From: Nakamurella panacisegetis
GTDB lineage: Bacteria; Actinomycetota; Actinomycetes; Mycobacteriales; Nakamurellaceae
Assembly: GCF_900104535.1 (NCBI RefSeq)
Contig: NZ_LT629710.1
Span: 558,001 to 622,000 of the forward strand
DNA length: 64,000 nucleotides
Direction of reading: 5' to 3'
Shown: in pieces, positions 16,741 to 39,992 of the stretch
How the letters are laid out: each line of letters opens with the position of its first letter
Numbering within the stretch: the stretch's first letter is position 1
Notes under the pieces: generated by a model
Databases searched by the model: none
What the model was told of the DNA's origin: nothing
Seen by the model: the letters and a program-made list of their open reading frames with translations, nothing else
Program-made: the position numbers and the translations under genes

Positions 16741-18321
16741 TCAGGCGCGCGCCGCCCGCTCTTCGGTGCCGGTGACCGGACCGTCGGGGCCCGAGTTGTC
16801 AGGTGCAGCGTCCGAGCTGGAATCGGCCTCGCCCGCTTCGGTCCTGGGGCCGGCCCAGGCCTGCTTCGGTGCGTCCGACTCGCCGGTCCGGTCGGACGAC
16901 TTGGTTCTCGACGCCGATCGGCGCCGGGTTCGGGGCTCAGCGCCCGCTTCGTCGATCGTCGCCGCGGAGGCGTAGCCGTACGGACCGTAACCGCGTTGGG
17001 CATCCGCTCCTTTTGTCGGGGCGAAGTTGAGGACCGTCCCGAGGATCCGGGCGTCCACCGCCCGCAGGCTGTGGACCGAACGCGAGACCATGCTTCGTTT
17101 GGTCTTGCCGTGCTTCACCACGATGACCGCACCGTCGGCGAAGGTCGCGGCGACCGCCGCGTCGGTGACCGGCAGCAACGGCGGCGTGTCGATGATGATC
17201 ACGTCGAATTTCGTCCGCAGGTCCGCGGTCAGATCGACCATGTGCTGACTGCCCAACAATTCCGAAGGATTGGGCGGGATCGAACCGCTGACCAGCACGG
17301 TCAGACCACTGGCGCCCCAGGTCTGCAGCACCACGTCCACGTCGACCTGGTTGGCCAGCACGTTCGTCAACCCGACGGCGCCTTCCAGCCCCAGGTAGTC
17401 GGCAATCTTCGGCCGACGCAGGTCGGCATCGATCAGCAAGGCTCTCCGTCCGGCATCGGCGAAGGCGATGGCCAGATTGGCCGCGGTGGTCGACTTCCCC
17501 TCCTTCTCGACCGATGAGGTCACCACGATCACCGACGCCGGCTGGTCCACGTCGACGAACTGCAGGCTCGTACGAAGTTGTCGGAACATCTCGGCCCGAA
17601 CCGACTGCGATCCGGCCTGCACTATCAGAGGGGACCTCTTGGTTGCTGAGTCCGAGTTGATCACCCCGAGCACCGGGACGTCGGTCAACGTACTGAGTCC
17701 ATGGACCGACCGGACGGTGGTGTCCAGCAGTTCTCGGAGCAGGGCCACGATGACGCCGATCGCGAGGCCGATGAGCGTTCCGAGGGCGATGTAGAGCTTG
17801 GTGCGAGGGCTCACCGGCTTCGGATTCAGGTGAGGCCCGTCGACGACGTCGAGGTGTACCAAGGCGGTCCTCGTCCCGTTGGCACTCTCGATCGTGTTCA
17901 CGAGGGCAGGGAACTGGGTGGCCAGCGCGTCGGCGACGGCTTCGGAGCGGGAGGGGACCGAGTCGGTGACAGTCGCGGTCAGCAGGACCGTGTTCAACTG
18001 CGAGGCGCCGCTGATGCTGGACTCCACCTTCTCCACGCTCAGGTCCACTTTCGATGCGGCGATCACCAACCGCGCCAGCCGATCACTGGACAGCAGGTAG
18101 ACATAGGTGTTCACCCGCTGCTGTGCGAACTGGTCGCCGGCGAAGGCTGAACTACTGGACGCGGAAGTCGTTTGCGTGGTCGCGAAGAAGGTCACCGTGG
18201 TGGCGTACATCGGGGTCTGCCGGTAGGCCAGGTAAGCGCCCGTCCCCGCCCCGACGACGGTGACGAGCACTATCGCCCACCACAACTTGCGCAAGGCCGC
18301 CACGTAGGTTCGCAATTCCAT
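16741..18321 (-). CDS. chain-length regulator / bacterial tyrosine autokinase (Wzz-Wzc type)
   Basis: 526 residues from ATG 18321; the frame is open further upstream but MELRTYVAALRKLWW is the typical family start. Membrane segments at about 14-33 and 176-197 enclose the extracellular Wzz domain. The cytoplasmic kinase domain has Walker A (SSVEKEGKST, 269-278), Walker A' (LLIDADLRRP, from about 295) and Walker B (VIIIDTPP, about 376). The C-terminal GYGPYGY carries a short tyrosine cluster as a candidate autophosphorylation site, followed by a charged low-complexity tail. It controls polymer length and export. The phosphatase gene just downstream is its probable partner. Confidence 0.9.
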   Translation of the reverse strand: MELRTYVAALRKLWWAIVLVTVVGAGTGAYLAYRQTPMYATTVTFFATTQTTSASSSSAFAGDQFAQQRVNTYVYLLSSDRLARLVIAASKVDLSVEKVESSISGASQLNTVLLTATVTDSVPSRSEAVADALATQFPALVNTIESANGTRTALVHLDVVDGPHLNPKPVSPRTKLYIALGTLIGLAIGVIVALLRELLDTTVRSVHGLSTLTDVPVLGVINSDSATKRSPLIVQAGSQSVRAEMFRQLRTSLQFVDVDQPASVIVVTSSVEKEGKSTTAANLAIAFADAGRRALLIDADLRRPKIADYLGLEGAVGLTNVLANQVDVDVVLQTWGASGLTVLVSGSIPPNPSELLGSQHMVDLTADLRTKFDVIIIDTPPLLPVTDAAVAATFADGAVIVVKHGKTKRSMVSRSVHSLRAVDARILGTVLNFAPTKGADAQRGYGPYGYASAATIDEAGAEPRTRRRSASRTKSSDRTGESDAPKQAWAGPRTEAGEADSSSDAAPDNSGPDGPVTGTEERAARA

Positions 18322-18536
18322 GCAATGTCCCGTTCTTCGCAGAGCCGTGAGGGAGTCCCCCAGCACCGAGGAATTGCCGTCGGCTACGTGGGCGACAGCA
18401 GAACCCTGATCGGAGTCTACGGGCCTTTTCCGGCCAGTCGAGTAAGGTTGGTGTCCGACAGCCACGGGCAGGCTTTGGCGACGGGTCTCCGAGCGCACGA
18501 CCCTCATCCAGCCGCGCGAGGAGAAAGGTTGACCCG

Positions 18537-19499
18537 GTGTCCGCGTCCGTCGGTGGTCGTTCATTCCCGACGGTGACGGTGGCCATGGCGACCTACCAAC
18601 GCGTCGACCGATTGGCGTCGGTGCTCCCGGCTCTGACCGAACAGGCGTCCCGGCTTGCCCCACCGGCGCGGATCGTGGTGGTCGACAACGACGCTGGCCG
18701 TTCTGCGGAGGATGCCATGAGTTCGTGGCTGGGTCCGTTGGTCCACTATGTATGCGAGCCGACACCGGGAATCGCGGCGGCCCGGAACCGGGCGATCGAC
18801 GAAGCCGTCGGATCCGATCTGCTCGTCTTCCTCGACGACGACGAGATGCCATGTTCGAACTGGCTGGTCGAACTGGTGTCGGCGTGGCAACGATGGGGAT
18901 GCGCGGCAGTGGCCGGTCCGGTCCACTCGCGATTCGCGACCACGCCGGAACCCTGGATCGTCGCCAGCGGAGTATTCGACCCGATCGATCGGGCCGACGG
19001 ACAGCGACTGGGCGGCGCGGCCAGCAACAACCTCCTGCTGGACCTGGGCCAGCTTCGTCGGACCGGTCTGCGCTTCGCGCCGGAATTCGGGCTGAGTGGC
19101 GGAAGCGACACCATGCTCACCCACGAGATGGTTCGCCGCGGCCTCGAGATTCGGTGGTGCGCTACGGCACGCGTGATCGAGGACGTTCCGAGCAGTCGGT
19201 TGAGCCGCAGATGGGTCCGGCGACGCACCGTGCGCACCAGCAACGACTGGAGCCGCGTCGCGATCGCGCTGGCCGACCGGCCCATCCGGGAGCGGGCCGA
19301 CCTGACGGCCCGGGCCGCCCTCCGGGCGGTCCAGGGACTCGCCCGACGGGTGAAGGGCACGCTGACCGGACAGGTGAGCGACCAGGCTCGGGGCGACCTG
19401 GCCCTGGCCAGTGCATGGGGCATGTTGATCGGTGCTTACGGCGTGACCAAGATCGAATACGGCCGCGACGCGCCTCGGGCGACGCCCCGGTCCCGGTGA
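18537..19499 (+). CDS. family 2 glycosyltransferase
   Basis: 320 residues, GT-A fold. TVTVAMATYQRVDRL at the start, VVVDNDAG, the CEPTPGIAAARNRAIDE helix and the metal-binding FLDDDE at about residue 100 mark a family 2 inverting transferase. GTG start preceded by a purine-rich AGGAGAAAGG. It is a paralogue of the gene at 36440-37387: both share the EPxPGIxAARNRAIDE and PEPWIVA motifs and the GGxDTxxxxE-like acceptor region. It transfers a sugar to the lipid-linked repeat unit; donor and acceptor are not known. Transcribed divergently from the autokinase. Confidence 0.9.
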   Translation: MSASVGGRSFPTVTVAMATYQRVDRLASVLPALTEQASRLAPPARIVVVDNDAGRSAEDAMSSWLGPLVHYVCEPTPGIAAARNRAIDEAVGSDLLVFLDDDEMPCSNWLVELVSAWQRWGCAAVAGPVHSRFATTPEPWIVASGVFDPIDRADGQRLGGAASNNLLLDLGQLRRTGLRFAPEFGLSGGSDTMLTHEMVRRGLEIRWCATARVIEDVPSSRLSRRWVRRRTVRTSNDWSRVAIALADRPIRERADLTARAALRAVQGLARRVKGTLTGQVSDQARGDLALASAWGMLIGAYGVTKIEYGRDAPRATPRSR

Positions 19500-19544: not shown

Positions 19545-19765
19545 CGACCGACCCTGGGGCGCTCTCTCAGCCGGGCTCCACCCGTGGCCCCGGCGATCGC
19601 GAGCACCCTGACCCATGGGGAGACGGCCGTTAGGATGGCCGAATCGGCCGGCCGCCCGTCCGGCGCACGCTTCTCGGTCGGGAGACGCCGATGCGACTTC
19701 CTAGCGCATATGGGTGTCGCTCGGCTGACGTGGGACCCGGCCCGACATGACGGAGGTTGATGACC

Positions 19766-21052
19766 ATGCTGCTCGCGGTGTGGGCGGCCTTCTGCCTCGG
19801 CTTGGCCGCCGTACTTCATCGTCGTCCGGCGGTATTGGCCATCCTGGCCCTGACGTTCTGGATGTTCGTTCCGGGAGTCGCCGGGCATTTGTTCACCGGG
19901 CGCTCCGAAGGCAGTCTGTCCTATCAGCCCGCGACCTGGCTCGTGCTGTTCGCCTGCGTCGTGCAGATGTTCCGTCATCCGAGTACGTTCTTCGCCGAGT
20001 TGGCCCGTCGTTACGTGACGTACCTGGCACTGCTGTTCGCGATCCTGGCCGCCGTGGTGATCACGCGGCTGGGCAGCCAACCCGCCGGCTCCGTGCTGGC
20101 GGTCGACCAGATGCTGGTCCCGGTGCTCATGTTCTGGCTGGTCGGGGCCGGGATCGCCGCTCGGCCGAGCGAGTTGATACTGCTGCGGAACTGGATCATC
20201 GGTCTCGCCGCCGTCCAGGCGGTGTTGGCCATCCTGCAGTACTTCGCCGGTTCGGTCATCTTCTACCGGTCGCAGTTCCTGACCGAGTACTGGTTCAATC
20301 CAGCCACCTGGGACCGCTGGATGGGGACGACCGATCATCCCTTGGTGTTGTCCCTGGTACTTTGCGGCGCCGTTCCGCTGATCGCCGGCCTCCGGCGGTC
20401 GGTGGTGCAGATCTCCCTGCTGAGCCTGCTGGCGGTGGCAACGTTGATCACTCAGTCGCGCACGGCCGCCGTCCTGGTCCCCGTTGGTCTGATCTACGTG
20501 ATGATCCGATCAAGGGCCGGCGCCTCGGCGAAGATCGTGGTCGGGTTGTCCATCGCGCTCGGTTCCTATCTGTTGGTCACGTCGCCCATCTTCGCCGGAC
20601 TGCAGAGCCGGCTGTTGGATGACACCGGATCGGCCGCCGCCCGGACTGCGGCCTGGACCTTCTTCACCGACAACTGGACCCAGTTCCTGTATTTCGGTGA
20701 CGGCATCACGACGAGTTATCGTGCCGCCCGCATCGGTGGCCTCGGGACGTCATTGGAGAGCGCCTACCTGATGTACGCCGTTGGGGTCGGGATAGTCGTC
20801 ACAACCATCTACTTCGGCACCCAATTGGTTCTCGTGTTCCGCTCGTTGTTCGCCCGGTGCGTTCGCGGGGCCTTCCTGGCCGGAGTGATGATGCTGATCA
20901 TCCCGGAGACGTTCAGTTCGCTCGGCGTCGAGACGGTGTCCGGACCACTGCTCTGGATGATCATGGCGTTGGTGGCGAACCCGGTCGCCGACACACTGCG
21001 ACCCGGACCGCAGCATCAGGTGGCCGCCGAGTCCGCGATGGTCTCGTCGTAG
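19766..21052 (+). CDS. O-antigen ligase/polymerase-like membrane protein (Wzy-like)
   Basis: About 428 residues with ten to twelve hydrophobic segments and a large extracytoplasmic loop around residues 170-200 (QFLTEYWFNPATWDRWMGTT). The TTDHPLVLSLVL and LITQSRTAA segments resemble the Wzy/WaaL family (O-antigen ligase domain). In the Wzx/Wzy pathway it would polymerise repeat units on the outer face of the membrane. GGAGG at 19752-19756 fits the ATG at 19766 (9 nt spacing); an ATG at 19760 or TTG at 19757 would be too close. The 3' end overlaps the convergent glycosyltransferase gene by 37 bp. Confidence 0.82.
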   Translation: MLLAVWAAFCLGLAAVLHRRPAVLAILALTFWMFVPGVAGHLFTGRSEGSLSYQPATWLVLFACVVQMFRHPSTFFAELARRYVTYLALLFAILAAVVITRLGSQPAGSVLAVDQMLVPVLMFWLVGAGIAARPSELILLRNWIIGLAAVQAVLAILQYFAGSVIFYRSQFLTEYWFNPATWDRWMGTTDHPLVLSLVLCGAVPLIAGLRRSVVQISLLSLLAVATLITQSRTAAVLVPVGLIYVMIRSRAGASAKIVVGLSIALGSYLLVTSPIFAGLQSRLLDDTGSAAARTAAWTFFTDNWTQFLYFGDGITTSYRAARIGGLGTSLESAYLMYAVGVGIVVTTIYFGTQLVLVFRSLFARCVRGAFLAGVMMLIIPETFSSLGVETVSGPLLWMIMALVANPVADTLRPGPQHQVAAESAMVSS

Positions 21053-22173
21053 ATGCGCTCCAGCTCGGCCGTCTGCTGACGGATGTCGAACGACCGGAGG
21101 ACTCGTTCGCGGCCGGCCCGGCCGAGCTGACGGGCCCGGTCGGTATCGGTCAACAGGGTCCGCAGTTGGCCGGACAGGCCGACGACATCCCCTTCCGGGA
21201 CCAACAAGCCGGTGATTCCGTTCGCGACCGATTCCACCACTCCCCCACTCGCGTAGGCCACGACCGGCGCGGAGTGGAGGGCCGCCTCCAGATAGACCGT
21301 CCCGAAGCCTTCAGTGGCACCGTCGTGGGTGATCGAGGGCCCACAGAACACCGCCGTGTGCTCGAGTTCGACGGCCACTTGTTCCGGCGACAGGCGGCCC
21401 AACCACTGCACGTTCACCCGCCTCCGGTCGGCCAATTGTCCTAGTTCTGCGCGCAGTTCACCCGTTCCGATCACCCGCACCGGTGTGGACGACCGAAGGT
21501 CGTCCGGCAGCGCGGCCACCGCCTCGATGAGGTGGCGGATTCCCTTCTGCTCACGGAGCCGGCCGACGAAGGTGATGCCCGATCGCCGGCTCCGGTCATC
21601 GAACTGCGGTCCCCGATCGGTGGGTACGCCGATGTGGTGGACGATCACCTTGGACTCGGGCGCGCCCAACTCGATCAGCCGCTCAGCGATGAACTCCGAT
21701 ACCGCGATCAACCGGGTGCACCCGGAGAACAGCCGGACGAGACCGGCCCGATATCGCCGCCCGGCCTCGTCCGTCCGGGCCGGCTCGCTGGTGGCGTCGA
21801 AGCCGTGAAAGGTAGCGACCAGGGGCAGCCGATTCCGCATGGCGATGGGGAGAACCCGGATGGCCCCTGGGCCGAAATGCGCGTGCAGGACCCGCACCTC
21901 GTGCCGGGCCAGCCAGCGGTCGTACGGGAACCGGTAGCCCAGGATCGCGTCGGCCCGATGCGCGGCCCGCGACAGCACTCGACGGTCGAAAGGGGCCAGA
22001 TCCGGGATGATCGGAAATCCGTCGGTCACCCGGCGCAGGCCAACGGTGATCGGGCGCCACCGGGCCAAGGCCGCGATCTGGTCCACGATGAAGGTCTCCG
22101 AGGCCGGCAACCAGTCGGTGCGCCAGATCGCGACCGCGGGCCGGTCGGACCCGGTGGCAGCGGCCGCCGTCAC
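21016..22173 (-). CDS. family 4 glycosyltransferase
   Basis: 385 residues, GT-B fold. The N-terminal domain has PASETFIVDQIAAL and HAHFGPGAIRVLP. The C-terminal domain begins FVGRLREQKGIRHLIEA and has the EGFGTVYLEAALHSAPVVAYASGGVVE nucleotide-sugar motif (EX7E-like), typical of retaining GT4 enzymes acting on surface polysaccharides. The true start is the GTG at 22173, which overlaps the flippase stop as GTGA; the frame is open far upstream but that is the antisense-like extension inside the flippase gene. Translationally coupled to the flippase. Confidence 0.9.
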   Translation of the reverse strand: MTAAAATGSDRPAVAIWRTDWLPASETFIVDQIAALARWRPITVGLRRVTDGFPIIPDLAPFDRRVLSRAAHRADAILGYRFPYDRWLARHEVRVLHAHFGPGAIRVLPIAMRNRLPLVATFHGFDATSEPARTDEAGRRYRAGLVRLFSGCTRLIAVSEFIAERLIELGAPESKVIVHHIGVPTDRGPQFDDRSRRSGITFVGRLREQKGIRHLIEAVAALPDDLRSSTPVRVIGTGELRAELGQLADRRRVNVQWLGRLSPEQVAVELEHTAVFCGPSITHDGATEGFGTVYLEAALHSAPVVAYASGGVVESVANGITGLLVPEGDVVGLSGQLRTLLTDTDRARQLGRAGRERVLRSFDIRQQTAELERIYDETIADSAAT

Positions 22174-23801
22174 GGCCGGCCCCGACCCGTGGCGCGCTGG
22201 ACGAAGTCGGCCATCAGCCGCAGGTCGGCCCGCTCCGTACTGGAGACCACGGCCAACCCGACCACGTATCCGGCCGCCGCCAGCGCCCCCAGCACCAACC
22301 GCAGAACCGCCGGAACGGGCAGCATCGATCCGGCCAGGGCGATCAGGCCGGCCGGGACACAGACGAGCAGCACGCTCCGCAGGGCGCGGCGCAACAACGG
22401 CCGGTAGTCGATCCCGGCCGACCGGCCCATCCACCACAGCGATGCGGCCCATTCGACCATGAACGCGAATGAATGTCCGGCAGCGACACCGACTGCGCCC
22501 CAAGGTAATCCGGCCAGGATCGAGATGATCATGAACGGGCGGGCCAGCAAGTAGAATCTCAACTGCGATCCGGTCAGACCTTTCGACAGGGTGATCCAGT
22601 ACGTGGTCTGAGCCAGCCCCCGGAAGATGCCGCCGATGGCCAGCAACGCGAAGATCGGCGCGACGCCGGACCAGGCCGCGCCGAAGAGCACGGCGACCAG
22701 CGGGCCCGAGAGCCCGGCCGCCACCGCGAAGGACAACCCGAACCCGTAGCAGCACAGCAGCTGGGCCCGCCGCACATACCGCAGATAGGTCTCGTCGTCG
22801 TCCTGCACTCGTGACAGGACCGGAAGCACGACCCGCAGCAGGGCGTTGCTCACCTGGGACAACGGCACCATCAACAGTTGGTAGCCCCGGCTGTAGAGGC
22901 CGACCGGCCCTGCGCCCCAGACCGACCCGAGCGCGACGGTGTCGACATTGTTGGTGGCGTAGCCCATCACCTGCATTCCCAGCAGACCGGCCCCGAACTT
23001 GAAGAATCGCCGCAGCGAGATTCCGCGGTGCGGCCAGCCCGGCCGCCAACGACACGACACGACATTGATGGCGCAGGTGGCGACGACAAAGACGATCTGC
23101 TGGATGACGATCGACCAGAATCCGAAGCCCAGGACCGCCGACAGGATGCCGGCTCCGATCCCGAGGGCCTGCGCGCCGACGTCGGTGACGGCCAAGGCCC
23201 GGAACCGAAGGCTGCGTGAGAGTTCGGCGCGGAACTGGGTGTTGGCCCCGCTGACCACGAACAACCACGAGAGGGCCAGGGTGACCCCCGTCAGCTCCGG
23301 TCGGGAGTAGATGGCCGCGATCAGCGGACTGCAGGCCGCCGCCACGGCCGCGCAGGCCGTGCCGATTCCGAGGTTGGCCCAGAACAGATTGGTTCGCTCA
23401 CCGTCGGACAGCTCCTTGGCCTGGATGGCCGCCGAAGACAGACCGAAGTCTCGGATGATCTCGGCCACCCCGAGGATCGCCGTGACCATGGCCACCAACC
23501 CGAAATCGCTCGGGGTGAGCAACCGGGACAGGACCACCAGCGCGATGATCTGCAGGACGAACCGCAAGCCCTGCGACACCAATGTGATCCCGGCCCCGCT
23601 GGCCGCGGCCCGGCCCAACGACGGCGACCCGGTGTCCGGATCGCCCATCGGCGGTTCGACCGGCGCCGGCCCGGCCGCATCAATAGGAGTGACCTCCGGT
23701 CCGAGAGGGTCAGCCGAGGTCGCGGGTGCCGAGACCGACTCGGTACTCCGGTCGGCCACACGATGCCGGCCGCGGTCCAAGGGTTCGCTCGCCGGCGTCA
23801 A
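22170..23801 (-). CDS. polysaccharide repeat-unit flippase (Wzx, MOP superfamily)
   Basis: 543 residues with about 12-14 membrane segments after a 65-residue Pro/Ala-rich cytoplasmic N-terminus. The core begins ASGAGITLVSQGLRFVLQII and has LLTPSDFGLVAMV, both typical of the Polysacc_synt_3/WzxC group. It would flip undecaprenyl-linked repeat units across the membrane. The start is TTG, overlapping the stop of the LamG/PKD gene (TTGA), and the stop overlaps the next glycosyltransferase start (GTGA), so three genes are read as one coupled unit. A later in-frame start inside the N-terminal extension is possible. Confidence 0.9.
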   Translation of the reverse strand: MTPASEPLDRGRHRVADRSTESVSAPATSADPLGPEVTPIDAAGPAPVEPPMGDPDTGSPSLGRAAASGAGITLVSQGLRFVLQIIALVVLSRLLTPSDFGLVAMVTAILGVAEIIRDFGLSSAAIQAKELSDGERTNLFWANLGIGTACAAVAAACSPLIAAIYSRPELTGVTLALSWLFVVSGANTQFRAELSRSLRFRALAVTDVGAQALGIGAGILSAVLGFGFWSIVIQQIVFVVATCAINVVSCRWRPGWPHRGISLRRFFKFGAGLLGMQVMGYATNNVDTVALGSVWGAGPVGLYSRGYQLLMVPLSQVSNALLRVVLPVLSRVQDDDETYLRYVRRAQLLCCYGFGLSFAVAAGLSGPLVAVLFGAAWSGVAPIFALLAIGGIFRGLAQTTYWITLSKGLTGSQLRFYLLARPFMIISILAGLPWGAVGVAAGHSFAFMVEWAASLWWMGRSAGIDYRPLLRRALRSVLLVCVPAGLIALAGSMLPVPAVLRLVLGALAAAGYVVGLAVVSSTERADLRLMADFVQRATGRGRP

Positions 23802-28632: not shown

Positions 28633-31600
28633 TCAGGCCGGGTCAACCTCGAAGTTGTCGAACTTGAGAGTGACCGGGGCATTGGTCGCCGTGGACGACA
28701 AGTACCCCTGGATCCCGACGGCTCCGGCCACCTGAAGCGCAGCCGTCGTGTCGGTGCTGTTGATCTGGAAAGCAGCCGGCTCGGTGGTGCCCACCTTCCA
28801 GACCCGGGCGGAGAGGGTGGTGGTGCCGCTTCCGGTCACCTTGAACCTCAGCCGTAACGTGTCACCCACCGCGTAGGTCAGGCCGGCGACATTCACTGTC
28901 TGCAAAGTGGTCTCGGCATTGGAGACCACGCGGCTCGTGATCAGCTGGACCGATCCGCCGGCCACGAACCGGACCTTGACGCGGTAGTCCGTGGTGCCAA
29001 CGCGACGGACCACCATGTTGGCGTAGACGCCTCCCCCGGTCGCGTCCTTGTCCATCTGGACGTCCACGACACCGGTCACGTCCCGGGCCGACACCGAGTT
29101 CAGAGTGGCCAATGGTCCGGTGCCGGCCGTGGCCAGGCGGATGACGCCGAAACCGCCGGCCACCGACATCGAGGAGTTCGATGTCGGGCTCCATGCTCCG
29201 CCGACGTCCGCGGTGCCCCAGGTGTTGGTCAGGGCACGGCCGAAGTTGTCCGTCGCGACTGCGGTGGCCGCGGCCGTGACCGTGACATTGTGAGAGACCG
29301 AGTTGGTCCCACCCTGGTTGTCGGTCACGGTCAGCGTCACCGTGTAGGTCCCGGCCGCCGCGTAGACATGGGTCGGGGTCGCCCCGGACCCGGCCGCCGT
29401 GTTGTCACCCCAGTTCCAGGCGTACGAGGCAATCGTGCCGTCCGGATCGGACGACGTCGAACCGTCGAATGCCACCGACAGGTTGGTCGCCGTCGAGGTG
29501 AACGCGGCGGTCGGCAGCTGGTTCGCCGCAGCGACCGTCACATTGTGGGAGACCGAGTTGGTCCCACCCCGGTTATCGGTCACGGTCAGCGTGACCGTGT
29601 AGGTCCCGGCCGCCGCGTAGACATGGGTCGGAGTCGCCCCGGACCCGGCCGCCGTGTTGTCACCCCAGTTCCACGAGTAGGACGAGATGGAGCCGTCCGG
29701 ATCGGACGACGTCGAACCGTCAAACGCCACCGACAGGTTGGTCGCCGTAGAGGTGAACGCAGCCGTCGGCAGCTGGTTCGCCGCAGCGACCGTCACATTG
29801 TGGGAGACCGAGTTGGTCCCACCCCGGTTGTCGGTCACGGTCAGCGTCACCGTGTAGGTCCCGGCCGCCGCATAGACATGGGTCGGAGTCGCCCCGGACC
29901 CGGCCGCCGTGTTGTCACCCCAGTTCCACGAGTAGGACGAGATGGAGCCGTCCGGATCGGACGACGTCGAACCGTCGAACGCCACCGACAGGTTGGTCGC
30001 CGTCGAGGTGAACGCAGCGGTCGGCAGCTGGTTCGCCGCCGTGACCGTCACGTTGTGGGAGACCGAGTTGGTCCCGCCCTGGTTGTCGGTCACGGTCAGC
30101 GTCACCGTGTAGGTCCCGGCCGCCGCGTAGACATGGTTGGCGGTAGCTCCGCTGCCCGCCGCCGTGTTGTCACCCCAGTTCCACGAGTAGGACGAGATGG
30201 AGCCGTCCGGATCGGACGATGATGTGCCGTCCGCGGCGAGCGACAGATCGGTGGACTGTGTGGTGAACGCCGCCACCGGCAACTGGTTGGGGACAGTGCC
30301 GCTGCCCACCTGGTAGTGCTGCAGCACATCCTGGGACGACAGGGCTCGGGAATAGATCGCGGCATCGTCCAGCTTGCCGGCGAAATAGTGGCTCGAGGCG
30401 CCGAACCACACAGTGTCGCCACCGAGGTGCCAGCGGCCGGTATAGGCCTGGGCCGCGGTCTGCGGGTTGGTCCCGGTCAGCTGCCCGTCGACGTAGAGCT
30501 TCATCCCGTCACTGGACTGGGTTGCCACCATGTGGTGCCAATGACCGTCGTTGTAGCTCGACGGAGTGGTGATCGTGTTCGTCTGCCCGGTCCAGGTGCC
30601 GAACACCAGGGTCCCGTCGTTCTGCATCCAGACATGTCGGTCGTAGTTACTGGACAGCCCGGATGCCGAATCGCCGAATCCGATCAACTTTCCGCCCGAG
30701 GTGGTGGTCGTGTTGAACCACAACTCCTCGGAATACGTGGTCGGGTTCGTGAACGTGTTGTTCGAAATCACCTGGCCGGTCGAGCCGTCGAACGCGGCCG
30801 CGGTGTCGGTGGTGCCGTGGATGCCTCCGGCGACCTGCTGGGTGACCCCACCGAGGTAGTAGCCGGGCTGGTTGTAGGGCGACGCGTCAGCGGCGACCGA
30901 ATTCGAATCGTCAAGGCGCCAGTACAGGTCGGGGTCGGCATTCCAGACCAGCGAGCCGTAGGCATCCCCCGGTGCTGTCGATCCCGGAACAGTCCGACCA
31001 CTGAGCGTGTAGTGGTTGGCCACCACCTGCCGGGACAACTGGGTCGGGTAGATCGCCACCTCGTCGATCGCGCCGTTGAAGTAGTTGCTCGAGGGTTGGT
31101 TGGTCCAGCCGCCCAGGTTGTCCCCACCGACGACCCAGAAGCCCGAGTAGGCCTGACCCGTCGTGATGTCGGACCGGTTGGCGGCGCGGACTCCGTCGAC
31201 GTACAACGTCATGCCGGCCGCACCGAGGCTGGCCACGACCTGATGCCAGGCCCCGTCGTTGTACGTGCCCGAGGTGCTCACGGTCTGTACCGATCCGGGG
31301 TACACACCGAAAAACAGATGCCCGGCATTGTCCATGTACACGTGCCGGTCATAGCTTCCGGACAGACCCGTGTTGTTGTTGCCGTACCCGATGATCTTCC
31401 CGCCCTGGGTGGTGGTGGTCTTGAACCACGCCTCCACCGTGAACGTGTCCGGGGCCGGCACCGCCGTCGCGGTCGTCACCGTCGAAGCCGACGTGCCGTC
31501 GAACGTCGTCGCGGTGTTGGAGTCCCCGATGATGGCGCCGGCCGTACCGCGTACCAGGCCCGTGCCGCCGACGCCGTCGTTGAATCCGGCGTAGTCGATG

Positions 31601-33356: not shown

Positions 33357-34154
33357 TCATGAGGCGTTACCGACGAACATCAGCACCGGTGCGTCAGTGC
33401 TGTAACTGACGCTGATTCCGATGGGACTGCGCTGCCCGGCCCCGACCGAGAAGACGTACGTACCCTGCGACTGGCCGCCGGGCTTCAGAGTGCCGCTGAA
33501 TGGTGCGGTCGGCGGACCCGACAGCGGCGACGCCGGGTTACCTTTCGAATTGGTGACGTTCACGGTGACCCTGCTGAGATCAATGCTTCGGGCGGACTTG
33601 TTCTCGATCTCGACCGTCACTGCCACTGCGGGGCCCGCGATCTCGCCCGGGCCCCGGGCCTCGGCCGTGATGCCGTTGACCCCAACGATCGAGGCCGAGA
33701 CCTTCCCGCCGAAATTCGCGGATCGGGTCAGCGGCACCGCTTTGGCCGTCGTCACCGGGACGGACGCGACCGTCTGATCGATGTTCCCGGCCGTGGGCGG
33801 CGGCACGGGCGTCGTGGCCGGCTTCGGTCTGCTCGTCGTGGCCGCCGATCCGCCGCCCGGCCGCGCGCTCGGCGCGGCCGGAACGGTCTTGGATCCCGGG
33901 CCGGACGAGGAGGTCCGCACCGCCACGGCCGGCGGGATGGGTGCGACCGAACTGGTCGAGCCCGCCGGGGCGGCCGGACTCTCCGTGCCGGACGTGCCGA
34001 CCGACGCCGAGGAGGCCGCCGCAGCGTTCGACCCCGAGGGGGAACCCGCCGCCCCGCTCTGGGTCTGGGCACTGGTGCAAGCCGCGGCACCGATGATCAG
34101 GGCGCCGACCAGGGCACCGATCCTGCGTGTGAGCCGAACAGCACTGCGGTTCAT
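33357..34154 (-). CDS. exported lipoprotein with Ig-like C-terminal domain
   Basis: 265 residues. The N-terminus is a lipoprotein signal ending IIGAAAC at about residue 26. Residues 27-125 are a Ser/Ala/Pro/Thr-rich linker that would span the cell wall. The C-terminal ~130 residues contain a DUF4352-like immunoglobulin fold (GPAVAVTVEIENKS, VTVNVTNSKG, LKPGGQSQGTYVFSV). AAGG lies 7 nt before the ATG. Start and stop both overlap neighbours by 4 bp (ATGA), so it is coupled to the glycosyltransferase before it and, depending on the start used, to the giant LamG/PKD gene after it. Function unknown. Confidence 0.75.
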   Translation of the reverse strand: MNRSAVRLTRRIGALVGALIIGAAACTSAQTQSGAAGSPSGSNAAAASSASVGTSGTESPAAPAGSTSSVAPIPPAVAVRTSSSGPGSKTVPAAPSARPGGGSAATTSRPKPATTPVPPPTAGNIDQTVASVPVTTAKAVPLTRSANFGGKVSASIVGVNGITAEARGPGEIAGPAVAVTVEIENKSARSIDLSRVTVNVTNSKGNPASPLSGPPTAPFSGTLKPGGQSQGTYVFSVGAGQRSPIGISVSYSTDAPVLMFVGNAS

Positions 34155-35332
34155 GATCGGACCTTCGTCTCGTCGTACTTGCGTGAGCCACGAGCAAGCC
34201 GCCGGGCCAGATCCTCGTATCGGTCGGTGACGTCGTCCCAGTCGTAGGCCGCCGCACGACTGCGTGCCGCCGCACGGCGGGCGACCAGGTTGAGATCGGC
34301 CGATTCGTCGTTCTCCACTCGTGCCGCGACGTCGGCCGCGGTGCCGAAATAGCGACCGGCCGAGCCGAGCACCTCTCGGTTGAAGTTCACGTCGTAGGCA
34401 TTGGTCGCGGTCCCGGCCCCGATCGCCCGGAGCAGGGACGGGTTGGTTCCGCCGACGCTGTGCCCGTGCCAGTAGATGCGGGCGTGCGCGTACAGCTGGT
34501 CGAGCAGTTCCTGATCCCAGACACCGCCCAGGAATCGAATGCGGTCATCCGCGGCGGCGTGTACGCGCCTGGTGTATTCGTCGGAATAGGGAGCCGACCC
34601 GACCACGATCAGCGGCAGACGCGAACCGCTCTGAACGAATCCTTGGACGATCATGTCCACGTGGTTTTCGGGCTCGAAGCGAGCGACAACGAGATGGTAG
34701 TCATTGGCGGTCAACCCCAGCTCGGACAACCGTGACGACGAGATCCCGGCCGTCTTGGGCGCCCCGTAGGAGATGATATCGGTTCCGACGTCGAACCTTT
34801 CGCGGTAGTAGTCGGCGATCCCGATCGCGTCGGCGATCAAGGCGTCGGACTGCTTGACCGCCAACCACTCGGCCGTTCGGTAATACCGGCGGCCCATCGG
34901 CCCCCATTTTGCGCGCTTCCATTCCAGCCCGTCAACGTGAGTGGCTACCGGAATTCTCGCCGCACGGAAAAGCGGCAGGAACGGCGCATTGGCCGCATTG
35001 AACACCACAGCCACATCAGTACGATTTTGCAGCAGGTGGCCGACCGAGAGGGCAGTGTGGCTCAGCGTCTCCAGACTCCGGCTACGCAGGGCCGGCCGAT
35101 GTACGAGTTCCATACCCAGGTACCGGCCCGCGGGCGGCGTAGTCGACGTCCCGGCTGTACGGCAGTAGACCACCACCTGATGGCCGCGATCGACCAGGCG
35201 CCGGCCGACCTCCTCGATCGCCGTCTCGAATCCCCCGTAGCGCGCCGGGACCCCGCGCGTGCCGACCATGGCGATACGCAGGAGCCGATCAGGATCGGCG
35301 CCAACGGTCGGGGCAGGGCGGGGATGTTTCAT
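34151..35332 (-). CDS. DUF1972-type glycosyltransferase (rhamnosyltransferase-like)
   Basis: 393 residues, GT-B fold with the N-terminal DUF1972 signature MVGTRGVPARYGGFETAIEEVGRRL. Other matches are VVVYCRTAG, THVDGLEWKRAKWG and the C-terminal VARFEPENHVDMIVQGF and GHSVGGTNPSLLRAIGAG. Characterised relatives include rhamnosyltransferases of capsule clusters; the donor here is not established. It begins a minus-strand unit with the lipoprotein and giant LamG/PKD genes. GAGG precedes the ATG by 4 nt. Confidence 0.9.
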   Translation of the reverse strand: MKHPRPAPTVGADPDRLLRIAMVGTRGVPARYGGFETAIEEVGRRLVDRGHQVVVYCRTAGTSTTPPAGRYLGMELVHRPALRSRSLETLSHTALSVGHLLQNRTDVAVVFNAANAPFLPLFRAARIPVATHVDGLEWKRAKWGPMGRRYYRTAEWLAVKQSDALIADAIGIADYYRERFDVGTDIISYGAPKTAGISSSRLSELGLTANDYHLVVARFEPENHVDMIVQGFVQSGSRLPLIVVGSAPYSDEYTRRVHAAADDRIRFLGGVWDQELLDQLYAHARIYWHGHSVGGTNPSLLRAIGAGTATNAYDVNFNREVLGSAGRYFGTAADVAARVENDESADLNLVARRAAARSRAAAYDWDDVTDRYEDLARRLARGSRKYDETKVRS

Positions 35333-35715: not shown

Positions 35716-36447
35716 TCAACGGGTGAAGCGGGCGGCCTTCCACAACGAACCCGAACCGAGAGCCGCCGTCAGCGAACAGGGGGTCAGGCCGCGGTCCGCG
35801 TAGGCCCGGATCAGGCTCGTGACCAACTTGCCGCGGTCCACGTCCGGTTCCGGCCCGTCGTCCACCCCGTCGTCGAGCCCGGCATGCGCGTCGTGATTCA
35901 GCAGGATCGAGCCGGGTCGGGCGTTGCTCATCGCCTTCGCGACCCGCTCGTCGTCGGCCAGCAGCGGCTTCCAGTCCCAGCTGGTCGAACTCCATAGCAC
36001 CGGAGTCAGGCCGGAGGCCCGTACGGCGGCCCAGGTACTGACCGTCTGACGTCCATACGGCGGTCGCATCCAGCGCAGCCGTCGCCCGAGGATGTCTTCC
36101 AATTCGGCCCGGCCGTCCCGGCAACGCCGAAAGACCTGGTTGGGGCTGAAGGTCGGCAGGGCTCGATGATCCACCCCGTGCAGGCCCACCTCGTGTCCGG
36201 CCGCCACAATCTCGGACAGCAGCGCCGGATGGCGACGCACCCTCGTCATCAGAACGAAGAAGGTGGCAGTGGCGCCGGTGGAGCGAAGTGCCTCGAGCAC
36301 GGCCGTGGTGCCCGCTGGGTCCGGCCCGTCGTCGAAGGTCATCACCACTATCGGACTCGCGGTCCGGACCCCTATCACGGACCCGGCACCCCACGATCGG
36401 CTCTCCACCAGGGTGCGGACGCCACTGCGTCGGCGCAGATCAGCCAT
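35716..36447 (-). CDS. NodB-type polysaccharide deacetylase
   Basis: 243 residues, carbohydrate esterase family 4. Motif 1 is MTFDDGPDP (Asp39, Asp40), motif 2 the metal-binding HEVGLHGVDH, motif 3 RPPYGRQT, motif 4 WDWKP and motif 5 LLNHDAH. All metal and catalytic residues appear to be present. No signal peptide or membrane segment is obvious, which is unusual for an enzyme acting on an external polymer; it may act on lipid-linked precursors inside the cell or use a missed upstream start. The start overlaps the preceding glycosyltransferase gene by 8 bp. Confidence 0.88.
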   Translation of the reverse strand: MADLRRRSGVRTLVESRSWGAGSVIGVRTASPIVVMTFDDGPDPAGTTAVLEALRSTGATATFFVLMTRVRRHPALLSEIVAAGHEVGLHGVDHRALPTFSPNQVFRRCRDGRAELEDILGRRLRWMRPPYGRQTVSTWAAVRASGLTPVLWSSTSWDWKPLLADDERVAKAMSNARPGSILLNHDAHAGLDDGVDDGPEPDVDRGKLVTSLIRAYADRGLTPCSLTAALGSGSLWKAARFTR

Positions 36448-37387
36448 CCCGCCGGTACTCCTGGTACACGTGCCCGACCGCTGCGGCAGCCATCCCGCCC
36501 CCGCGTCGGGCCAGTCTCTGACCGCGGGCCTGGTGCCGGGCCGACCCGTTGACCCGGCCGAACGTCGATCGCGCCGAGCCGACCGCGACGCGGGCCAGCC
36601 CCCCGACGGCCAGTTCCACCCGACGGACCGACCGACGCGCGCGACCGGCGGTCAGATCGAGCGCGATGAGCCCGGTCGTGTTGCCGTGGCTCCACGCCCG
36701 GCGCAGAACCCACTCACGGTTCATCCGCGCCGCCGGAACCTTGTCCACCACGACCGACTCGTTGCACCACAACATGCGTCCACCTTTGGCGAAAAGCGCA
36801 CGGCTGAACAAGGTGTCCTCTCCGCCGGCCAGGCCGTAGCGGTCGTCGAATCGCAGCCCGAACGCCCGGACCTGCTGCAGATCGATCAGTAGATTGCCGG
36901 CCGCGGCCACGTCCAGTTCGGTTCCCGTCGGCAGACTGCGACGCTCGAAGAACCGGCCGGCCACAATCCACGGCTCGGGCGGCCGCTCGTACTCGGGGAT
37001 CACCCGACCCGATACCGCCGCCGGTTCGGTGGGCGCCCAGACATCGAGCAACTGCGACAGCCATCCTGGCTCGGGGCGCTCGTCATCGTCGATGTAGGCC
37101 AGTAGTCGCGATCCGGCGGACTCGTCGATCGCGCGGTTTCGCGCGGCCGATATTCCGGGTCTCGGTTCGACGCAATACCGGACGATGGGTGACCCGAAGG
37201 CCGACACCGCCGATCGCGCGCTCCCCTCGGGATCGTTGTCGACCACTAGGACGTCGGCTCGGTGGCCGGGCCGGGAATTTATCTGCTGAACCTGGTCGAG
37301 AATCATCGGCAGACCTTCGGACACCTCGCCCGGACGACGGAAGGTCAGGATCGCCACGGTCACCGACACCGATGCCACCGAGAACAT
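36440..37387 (-). CDS. family 2 glycosyltransferase, second copy
   Basis: 315 residues, GT-A fold: VTVAILTFRRPGEV, VVDNDPEGSA, CVEPRPGISAARNRAIDE and the metal-binding YIDDDE. It is a clear paralogue of the enzyme at 18537-19499, sharing PEPWIVAG, the GGEDT acceptor motif and a basic C-terminus. GGAAGG lies 3 nt before the ATG. Downstream it overlaps the deacetylase gene by 8 bp, suggesting that the sugar it adds is later deacetylated (inference). Confidence 0.9.
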   Translation of the reverse strand: MFSVASVSVTVAILTFRRPGEVSEGLPMILDQVQQINSRPGHRADVLVVDNDPEGSARSAVSAFGSPIVRYCVEPRPGISAARNRAIDESAGSRLLAYIDDDERPEPGWLSQLLDVWAPTEPAAVSGRVIPEYERPPEPWIVAGRFFERRSLPTGTELDVAAAGNLLIDLQQVRAFGLRFDDRYGLAGGEDTLFSRALFAKGGRMLWCNESVVVDKVPAARMNREWVLRRAWSHGNTTGLIALDLTAGRARRSVRRVELAVGGLARVAVGSARSTFGRVNGSARHQARGQRLARRGGGMAAAAVGHVYQEYRRDG

Positions 37388-37514: not shown

Positions 37515-39992
37515 TCAGAAGGTACCGATCTTCTTGGTGCCGGAGGCTACTCCAACCGCCGAAGCGACGTCAGCCGGCAGGGCGACGGCAAATGAGCTGA
37601 ACGCCGATTCCTGCGTCGTCAGCCCGGCGAGCGCGGTGCTGGTCGCACTCTCGGCATTGCGCCACCCGGCGTTCTTTGCCGAGAGCTGGGCCACGCTGGT
37701 CATCCGGGAGGCGATCTGGTTGTTGGTGCCGCCCCAGGCCAGCAGGTTGGAATCCGAGGCGGACACCTTCTTGGAGAAGAGGTTTCCGTTGATCGTGATG
37801 TTCATCGAATCGGCGCCCACATTGGTCGCCTTGTCCAGAACCATGATGTGGTCGGTCGGTGCCTCACCGAAACTGTTGTTCACGATCTGAACGTTCCGCA
37901 GGATCCATGGACACGTCGGATCCGGAATGGGATAGCGGGGATCGTGGCCCGGTTCGCTGGCGTTCGCCTGGCGCCGACCGTTCTGCGAAAGCCAGATACC
38001 CTGGTCCGAGCTGCCGCCGAGCCGGTTGTTGTAGATCTTGCCATTGCCCGCATTGAAGAGGTAGATCCCGGTCTTGCCGCCGGTCACGGTGTTGTTGGCG
38101 ATGGTCATCGTGTCCGACAGTTCGGTTTCGATGCCGGCCTCGGTGTTGCCTGTCACCGTGTTGCCGACGATTCTGATGTTGACGCTGGATTCGTCGAACC
38201 AGATGCCGGTCCCATAGGTGTTGATGACGGTATTCCCACTGATCACCGCATTTCGGGTCTTGGTGATCTTGATTCCTCCGGTGGCGATCCACGGATTGAA
38301 GTGCTCGTAGTTGTTCTGGTTGAACAGCGAGTTCTTCACCACCAGGTTGTCCGCCGTGTCGGCATGCAGACCCATCTGACCGGCCCGATTCACCGTCACG
38401 TGATTCGCCGATGCATTGCTTCCGCTGAAACTCAGGGCGTTGGCCGCGACGTCGTCGATCTCCACGTTCTCGACCGACCCTGGCTTGTTGAACCGCACGG
38501 CGCCCATCAGTGGCATCGGCGTTCCGTACCGGCGCACTCCGAACCCCCGGAGCACGACACCGGCCACGTTGACCCGGATGGCCTGCTCGATGTCGGTGGC
38601 CCGGACCTGGTGGTTGGCCGGGTCGCTACCGATGATCAGTTGCTTGCTCGCGTAGTTGACCGCGAATGTCCCGGGAACCACCGATGCGGCGGTCGCGACC
38701 TGCTTGAGCTGAACGCCGTCGATGTACACCTGATCCGGGTGGGATGCCATCGGAAAGCCGCTCTGGAGGAAGACCGAGTTGTTCTGGCCGAAACTGAAGC
38801 CGATCGAGCTGTCGAATGTCTTCGTCCATCCGGACTTGACCCAGGTCGAACCGGACTTGGTCCATCCGGTGACCGCGCTGCTTCCGTCGAACCAGACTGC
38901 CTCCGCCGGGTAGGCCTGAATGGTGATCGGGCGGTCATTGACGATGACCGATTCGTGATAGGTGCCGCCACGCAGTACGACCGTTTGACCTGCCGCGGCC
39001 CTCGACACCGCGTAAGTCACTGTCCGGTAGGGCGCTGCCATGGTCCCGGACCCGGAATCGTTGCCCGAGTTCGGATTGACGAAGATCGCGTTCGACGGCA
39101 CGGCATACTGCGCCGTTCCGATCGGAAGGGCCCCGTGTGTTGTCGTGGCGGGCGCGGTGACGGCGGGTGGGACGGCCGGTGGTGGCGTGGTCACCGGCGC
39201 ACCTGCGGTCAACCTCTTCGCGGCCCAGAAGTCGTCGACGACAACTGTGGTGGCCACGGAGGAACGGGATACGTAGTCCCACTGGCCCACCGCCCCAGCC
39301 TTGGTGATCCGTGACGGCGAGGTGTCCTGAGCGGTCAGTTGCCAGCCGGGTTCGGCACTACCGGACAACCAGGCTCGGGCCGAGAGCACCACGGGATCGG
39401 TTCCGGTGACCTCGAAGGCCAGCTTGACGAGAGTGCCTGGGGCAGCGGTCAGATTGGTCCTGACATCCTTCAGGAGGGTGTCCGAGCTACCGCTGACCCG
39501 AGACACGCTCACCGAGAGAGCGCCGCCCGGAGCCAGCCGGACCCGGCCGATGTACGCGGATCCGTCGTTCTGGCGGCGAGCCTGGAGGCCGTGATAGAGG
39601 CCGAAGGCCGAGGCGGCCATGGCCGGCGCCCGGACGGTGCCCTGCAGGTGGACGTCCGCGGCCGAGGTCTGCGTCAGCACGACCGACGTGGCCGTGCCGG
39701 GCTGCACCGCTTCGAGTACACCGTGCCCGCCGGTCACGCTGAGCGCACCGGAGCCGGTGCCCTTGGCAGTGGTGTATGCGCCGCCGAGATCGGCGGAACC
39801 GAGTCCGCCGCTGGTCGTTCGGCTGTAGGTATCCACCGCGATGTTGGTCCAGGTGGCTCCGGCAGCCGAGGCCGACGAGGCGACGGGGACGACGATGCCC
39901 CCGGCGACGGCTGCCGTGAAGACGGAAATGGCGATTCGTTGGACGCGTTTGCTTCTGGACGTCCTGATGGAATGACGAGGTGCTTGGGACAA
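37515..39992 (-). CDS. secreted beta-helix protein with an N-terminal copy of the shared ~200-residue module
   Basis: About 825 residues. The best-supported start is the TTG at 39992, with GGAGG 5 nt upstream; ATGs at 40007 and 40043 lie in frame without such a site. A signal peptide ends near residue 44 (SSASAAGA). Residues about 50-258 match the C-terminal module of the two giant LamG/PKD proteins (DTYSRTTSGGLGSADLGGAY). A Pro/Thr linker follows, then from about 300 a DUF1565-like start (IFVNPNSGNDSGSG, VVLRGGTYHESV) and a long right-handed parallel beta-helix (coils such as NVEIDDVAANAL, AVISGNTVINTYG, IRIVGNTVTGN, MTIANNTVTGG). This fold is common in polysaccharide lyases and epimerases. 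Lone gene with its own terminator. Confidence 0.82.
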   Translation of the reverse strand: MSQAPRHSIRTSRSKRVQRIAISVFTAAVAGGIVVPVASSASAAGATWTNIAVDTYSRTTSGGLGSADLGGAYTTAKGTGSGALSVTGGHGVLEAVQPGTATSVVLTQTSAADVHLQGTVRAPAMAASAFGLYHGLQARRQNDGSAYIGRVRLAPGGALSVSVSRVSGSSDTLLKDVRTNLTAAPGTLVKLAFEVTGTDPVVLSARAWLSGSAEPGWQLTAQDTSPSRITKAGAVGQWDYVSRSSVATTVVVDDFWAAKRLTAGAPVTTPPPAVPPAVTAPATTTHGALPIGTAQYAVPSNAIFVNPNSGNDSGSGTMAAPYRTVTYAVSRAAAGQTVVLRGGTYHESVIVNDRPITIQAYPAEAVWFDGSSAVTGWTKSGSTWVKSGWTKTFDSSIGFSFGQNNSVFLQSGFPMASHPDQVYIDGVQLKQVATAASVVPGTFAVNYASKQLIIGSDPANHQVRATDIEQAIRVNVAGVVLRGFGVRRYGTPMPLMGAVRFNKPGSVENVEIDDVAANALSFSGSNASANHVTVNRAGQMGLHADTADNLVVKNSLFNQNNYEHFNPWIATGGIKITKTRNAVISGNTVINTYGTGIWFDESSVNIRIVGNTVTGNTEAGIETELSDTMTIANNTVTGGKTGIYLFNAGNGKIYNNRLGGSSDQGIWLSQNGRRQANASEPGHDPRYPIPDPTCPWILRNVQIVNNSFGEAPTDHIMVLDKATNVGADSMNITINGNLFSKKVSASDSNLLAWGGTNNQIASRMTSVAQLSAKNAGWRNAESATSTALAGLTTQESAFSSFAVALPADVASAVGVASGTKKIGTF

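Follow-up and report, generated by a model that had tools for sequence, protein, structure and literature searches.

The C-terminal CBM66 of a Cohnella xanthanase (CsCBM66) binds the side chains of xanthan, a bacterial exopolysaccharide (PMC11002231). In Vibrio cholerae, Bap1 and RbmC are secreted multi-domain proteins that combine a propeller with a lectin-type domain and bind their own exopolysaccharide through the propeller (PMC10102183). Glycoside hydrolases of family GH120 use an Asp residue as nucleophile and a Glu residue as acid/base (PMC6887791). Here, we analyze a 64,000-nucleotide window of Nakamurella panacisegetis (assembly GCF_900104535.1, contig NZ_LT629710.1, positions 558,001-622,000), to which all coordinates refer, in which three proteins, designated P1, P2, and P3, carry the same module. 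With a confidence that only just passes the even mark, we propose that the module represents an undescribed CBM-like family, unnamed in the libraries searched, which most likely binds the polysaccharide of its own locus and tethers P1, P2, and P3 to it.

Three proteins of a polysaccharide locus share a module

In P3, the module was mapped by BLAST, alignment, AlphaFold, and Foldseek to residues 71-275 (39219-39833, minus strand; about 205 amino acids), directly downstream of the signal region. A BLAST search of the whole genome in six frames with this segment detected P2 (E 1.5e-20, 35% identity) and P1 (E 1.6e-17, 36% identity) but no fourth copy, placing all three copies in one locus. BLAST and alignment located the copies of P1 (24427 to about 23798-23801, minus strand) and P2 (29250 to about 28633-28636, minus strand) at the C-terminus, where the module ends 3-6 residues ahead of the stop codon. 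The three aligned copies start with D-[TN]-[FY]-x-R ... G-[ST]-AD-x-GGA-[WY] and end with the block LS[AG]RxWxxGxxEP ... DT ... GxVG. These results bear out a first-pass annotation that had described a module of about 200 residues common to three proteins of the locus, C-terminal in two and N-terminal in the third, with the same start motif and end block and with limits that fall within a few codons of ours. The strand, which that annotation left unstated, is minus for all three genes; reading the segment as a plus-strand frame was rejected owing to a stop within it.

In P1 (23798-28561, minus strand), Pfam identified one Rax2-like β-propeller together with two Laminin_G_3 and four PKD domains; the module closes the protein. 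P2 (28633-33360, minus strand) has the same architecture. Some copies of its four PKD repeats are nearly identical, which suggests a recent tandem duplication. P3 (37515-40043, minus strand) consists of a signal-like N-terminus, the module, and a right-handed β-helix that resembles GH120 enzymes by its fold match (3vst) and matches Beta_helix, NosD, and DUF1565 in Pfam. Signal-like N-termini, recognized by eye and with a crude script, predict that P1, P2, and P3 are exported.

The same stretch encodes, on the minus strand, a Wzx-type flippase (22170-23801; Polysacc_synt_3, E 2.8e-68), a Wzz-like chain-length domain fused to a tyrosine-kinase-type ATPase (16741-18852, the listed start of this open reading frame being probably too early), a GT4-type glycosyltransferase (DUF1972; 34151-35332), a polysaccharide deacetylase (35716-36447), and a GT2 glycosyltransferase (36440-37387). 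A polytopic membrane protein on the plus strand (19757-21052), devoid of a Pfam match, is, judging from its sequence and location, a candidate Wzy polymerase. A DUF4012 protein and a UDP-glucose dehydrogenase, the latter assigned by sequence and position without a library match, are encoded farther along in the window. The gene for an exported DUF4352-like companion, whose Pfam match falls under the curated cut-off, lies at 33357-34154 (minus strand). Small DUF4352-like proteins recur beside module or propeller proteins in 43 of 78 GTDB loci and in 14 of 40 regions from relatives, and are probably a conserved partner of the module/propeller system.

The module has a predicted lectin-like fold and matches no family in Pfam or NCBIfam

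The AlphaFold model of the P3 module, built from a 100-sequence alignment, was all β (pLDDT 93.5, pTM 0.90). The first-ranked Foldseek match was CBM66 (4b1m; E 4.8e-7, TM 0.75 normalized to 4b1m, about 13% identity), and the next solved folds were L-type lectins (leguminous and ERGIC-type), GH16 glucanases, and a PL7 alginate lyase. The closest viral models were minor tail proteins of actinophages. A concanavalin-like β-sandwich, which had been guessed for the module, is therefore the predicted fold. That the three copies share one fold had also been proposed: the prediction is confident for P3, and the modules of P1 and P2 are expected to fold likewise by virtue of their homology to the modeled copy.

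No Pfam or NCBIfam model covered the module in the proteins of the window or in 100 diverse members of the family, in keeping with the initial impression that no named domain was recognizable. A profile of the 100 members found no convincing match among PDB chains and left the CBM66 chains among PDB sequences unmatched at E ≤ 5. Within the modules encoded in the window, Laminin_G_3 (PF13385) produced no above-cut-off match, and it was absent from the 25 families listed at E ≤ 0.1 when the 100 members were scanned. The profile and library scans assigned the module to no sequence family of Pfam, NCBIfam, or the PDB. The one useful match in PHROGs was phrog_24476 ('phosphodiesterase'), which has the module as its C-terminus. 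A literature search, limited by the terms used, found nothing on this architecture in Actinobacteria.

Concanavalin-like folds also perform protein-protein functions, as in LamG domains, and this counts against a CBM-like reading. The module might be a structural part, a LamG-like spacer or oligomerization domain that binds no glycan. P1 and P2 already contain LamG and PKD repeats, tandem copies of the module are common in the family, and its near-invariant residues are mostly Gly, Trp, and Asp of the framework type. We regard this explanation as rather improbable, since the nearest folds are carbohydrate binders and the module is fused to lyases, a deacetylase, and GH-like domains.

The β-helix of P3 resembles a GH120 hydrolase

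The model of P3 (pLDDT 90.4) has a right-handed parallel β-helix core, and its best fold match was the GH120 β-xylosidase XylC (3vst; E 3e-17). A profile of 19 P3 homologues matched XylC with an E value of 1.5e-20, mostly via the N-terminal cap, and also matched mannuronan C5-epimerases. Two acidic residues of P3, D617 (codon 38193-38195) and E641 (codon 38121-38123), were invariant in 20 of 20 homologues. In 3vst they pair with the Asp of GLWLD and the Glu of FVEVS, in an aligned stretch that is weak alone (11.7 bits). By count, these are D382 and E405, which we take to be the catalytic residues of the GH120 enzyme. The β-helix (37515-39110, minus strand) therefore looks like a distant GH120-type hydrolase, a prediction from model and alignment that differs from the Pfam annotation. 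Analogy with neighbors and the epimerase profile matches had raised polysaccharide lyase or epimerase activity as candidates; a GH120-like hydrolase is favored by the top structural match together with the Asp/Glu pair.

The module keeps its position and changes its partner

A scan of genome contigs gave 238 relatives, and 78 loci were kept. Nearly all of them belong to Actinomycetota, with single metagenome-assembled contigs from Chloroflexi and Acidobacteria. The module was present in 28 of 101 sampled relatives and in at least 26 of 297 genomes across the phylum, a figure that includes some weak matches and may be an undercount since few candidates were scored per genome. It was also found in 15 phage records, mostly of Streptomyces phages, and at 42 IMG/VR loci. 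In phage Dryad, the module is encoded by a minor tail gene that adjoins the tape measure gene.

Among 93 bacterial propeller-type open reading frames that carry the module, 89 have it at the C-terminus, the last copy ending 20 residues or fewer from the stop codon. C-terminal copies are found on matrix-type proteins with propeller, LamG, and PKD domains, and their partners include a polysaccharide deacetylase and phosphoesterases. Proximity to the stop codon would suit a C-terminal sorting or export signal. We consider such a role highly improbable: proteins contain up to three copies, N-terminal copies lie right behind the signal region, phage copies are not terminal, and the ends of P1 and P2 lack both an LPxTG motif and a C-terminal membrane anchor.

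The module was N-terminal in all ten P3-type β-helix proteins. Other N-terminal copies precede PL14 lyases (L156 and L175) and an alginate-lyase-like domain (L048). Loci L143, L144, and L158, from genomes of the same genus, encode small β-helix proteins of no clear Pfam family that have an N-terminal module. The module thus appears as a discrete fold appended to carbohydrate-active domains (PL14, alginate-lyase, β-helix, and deacetylase partners), as is typical of CBMs, and this suits a polymer-binding role. Some orthologues of the P3 β-helix are devoid of the module, including one in Actinomadura that neighbors a module-bearing propeller protein, and 17 complete propeller open reading frames also lack it, indicating that the module is a detachable part.

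In a tree of 110 modules, with branch support given by SH-aLRT only, 18 N-terminal rows, including one contig-end fragment, formed one clade (SH-aLRT 99). One N-terminal copy from Blastococcus fell outside this clade, and C-terminal copies dominated the rest of the tree. Apart from a single long-branch row, the phage rows formed one group of 29 (SH-aLRT 90, not starred). Since nearly all sampled N-terminal copies belong to one clade, a switch from one end of the protein to the other is rare. The idea of a module that moves between termini needs amending: both positions occur, but the position has rarely changed, and it is the catalytic partner of the N-terminal module that has changed repeatedly and differs between strains. 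One fixed polysaccharide ligand is unlikely given this variation in enzyme class, unless the specificity of the module varies too.

Module genes recur in polysaccharide loci

Gene clusters encoding the module were compared with control stretches from the same genomes, using BY-kinase/Wzz, Wzx, GT2, GT4, and UDP-glucose dehydrogenase as markers of polysaccharide synthesis. At least two markers were present in 15 of 19 module clusters of relatives and in none of 20 controls (Fisher p 1.5e-7), a ratio that is somewhat inflated because the view spanned 20-60 kb for clusters but 20 kb for controls. The four other clusters were devoid of these markers, two of them encoding phosphoesterase/PKD proteins, and count against the locus polysaccharide as ligand. 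Outside polysaccharide loci, L152 and L176 combine the module and PKD domains with phosphoesterases (PF04185). A 415-kb plasmid of Actinomyces oris displays the same arrangement under an independent annotation, with a module-bearing LamG protein in a polysaccharide locus (L202, 12001-12597). The survey and the plasmid agree with the earlier expectation that the module would recur beside such loci.

Variation in the enzyme partner also points to another possibility, a more general ligand: the module could be a non-covalent anchor to a common glycopolymer of the actinobacterial cell surface, teichoic-acid-like or of the arabinogalactan type, instead of binding the exopolysaccharide of the locus. 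The module is retained while the catalytic partner changes, most of the secreted proteins carry it at the C-terminus a few residues ahead of the stop, and the family extends to the minor tail proteins with which actinophages contact the host surface. However, modules cluster in polysaccharide-synthesis loci rather than occurring throughout the secretome, the three copies of N. panacisegetis being confined to one locus, and the N-terminal clade rides on sugar-active enzymes. We hold this alternative to be unlikely, while giving it more weight than a purely structural role.

We retain the proposal that the module binds the extracellular polysaccharide made by its own gene cluster. At the C-terminus, it would attach the long matrix-type proteins P1 and P2, with their propeller, LamG, and PKD domains, to the polymer. 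At the N-terminus, it would hold the secreted GH120-like P3, a putative hydrolase, on the polymer that P3 may trim. The fold, the locus setting, the architecture, the presence in phage tails, and, by analogy, the binding of xanthan by a CBM66 are all consistent with a CBM-like module. Given its recurrence in similar actinobacterial clusters and in the tails of their viruses, the module probably represents a novel type of sugar-binding tether. More tentatively, and with doubt on our part, a large, unnamed actinobacterial family of glycan-binding modules might dock matrix proteins and one strain-variable enzyme per exopolysaccharide locus, while the actinophage-tail lineage reaches the same class of host polymer.

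Common as it is among Actinobacteria, the module bears no Pfam or NCBIfam name. Should it prove to bind glycans, it would qualify as a candidate CBM family, could mark exopolysaccharide loci in actinobacterial genomes, and could serve to stain polymers of which little is known. Since phage tails carry it as well, a connection between phage adsorption and the surface polymers of the host becomes open to testing.

Comparison with described systems

CBM66 (4b1m of Bacillus subtilis and CsCBM66 of Cohnella) and the module have in common a concanavalin-like β-sandwich, a similar size, and an accessory position at the end of a protein; they differ in sequence, both in the fold alignment and in the profile comparison reported above. 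Members of CBM66 are further characterized by binding to the termini of fructans or to xanthan side chains. Laminin_G_3 belongs to the same fold class and is also present in P1 and P2, although it was not among the families listed for the 100 members. P3 and the GH120 enzyme XylC are 16% identical, and P3 has the additional N-terminal module. Bap1 and RbmC provide a working analogy for P1 and P2, as they are likewise secreted and contain a propeller plus a lectin-type domain; the two pairs differ in their lectin domains and in the propeller, which is Rax2-like in P1 and P2. Actinophage minor tail proteins have about 35-40 extra residues after the module, unlike P1 and P2, and, with a single exception, the phage copies form a separate group in the tree. 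Nevertheless, they carry, near the C-terminus, a module homologous to that of N. panacisegetis, with 28-34% identity over its whole length, as in gp26 of Streptomyces phage Dryad.
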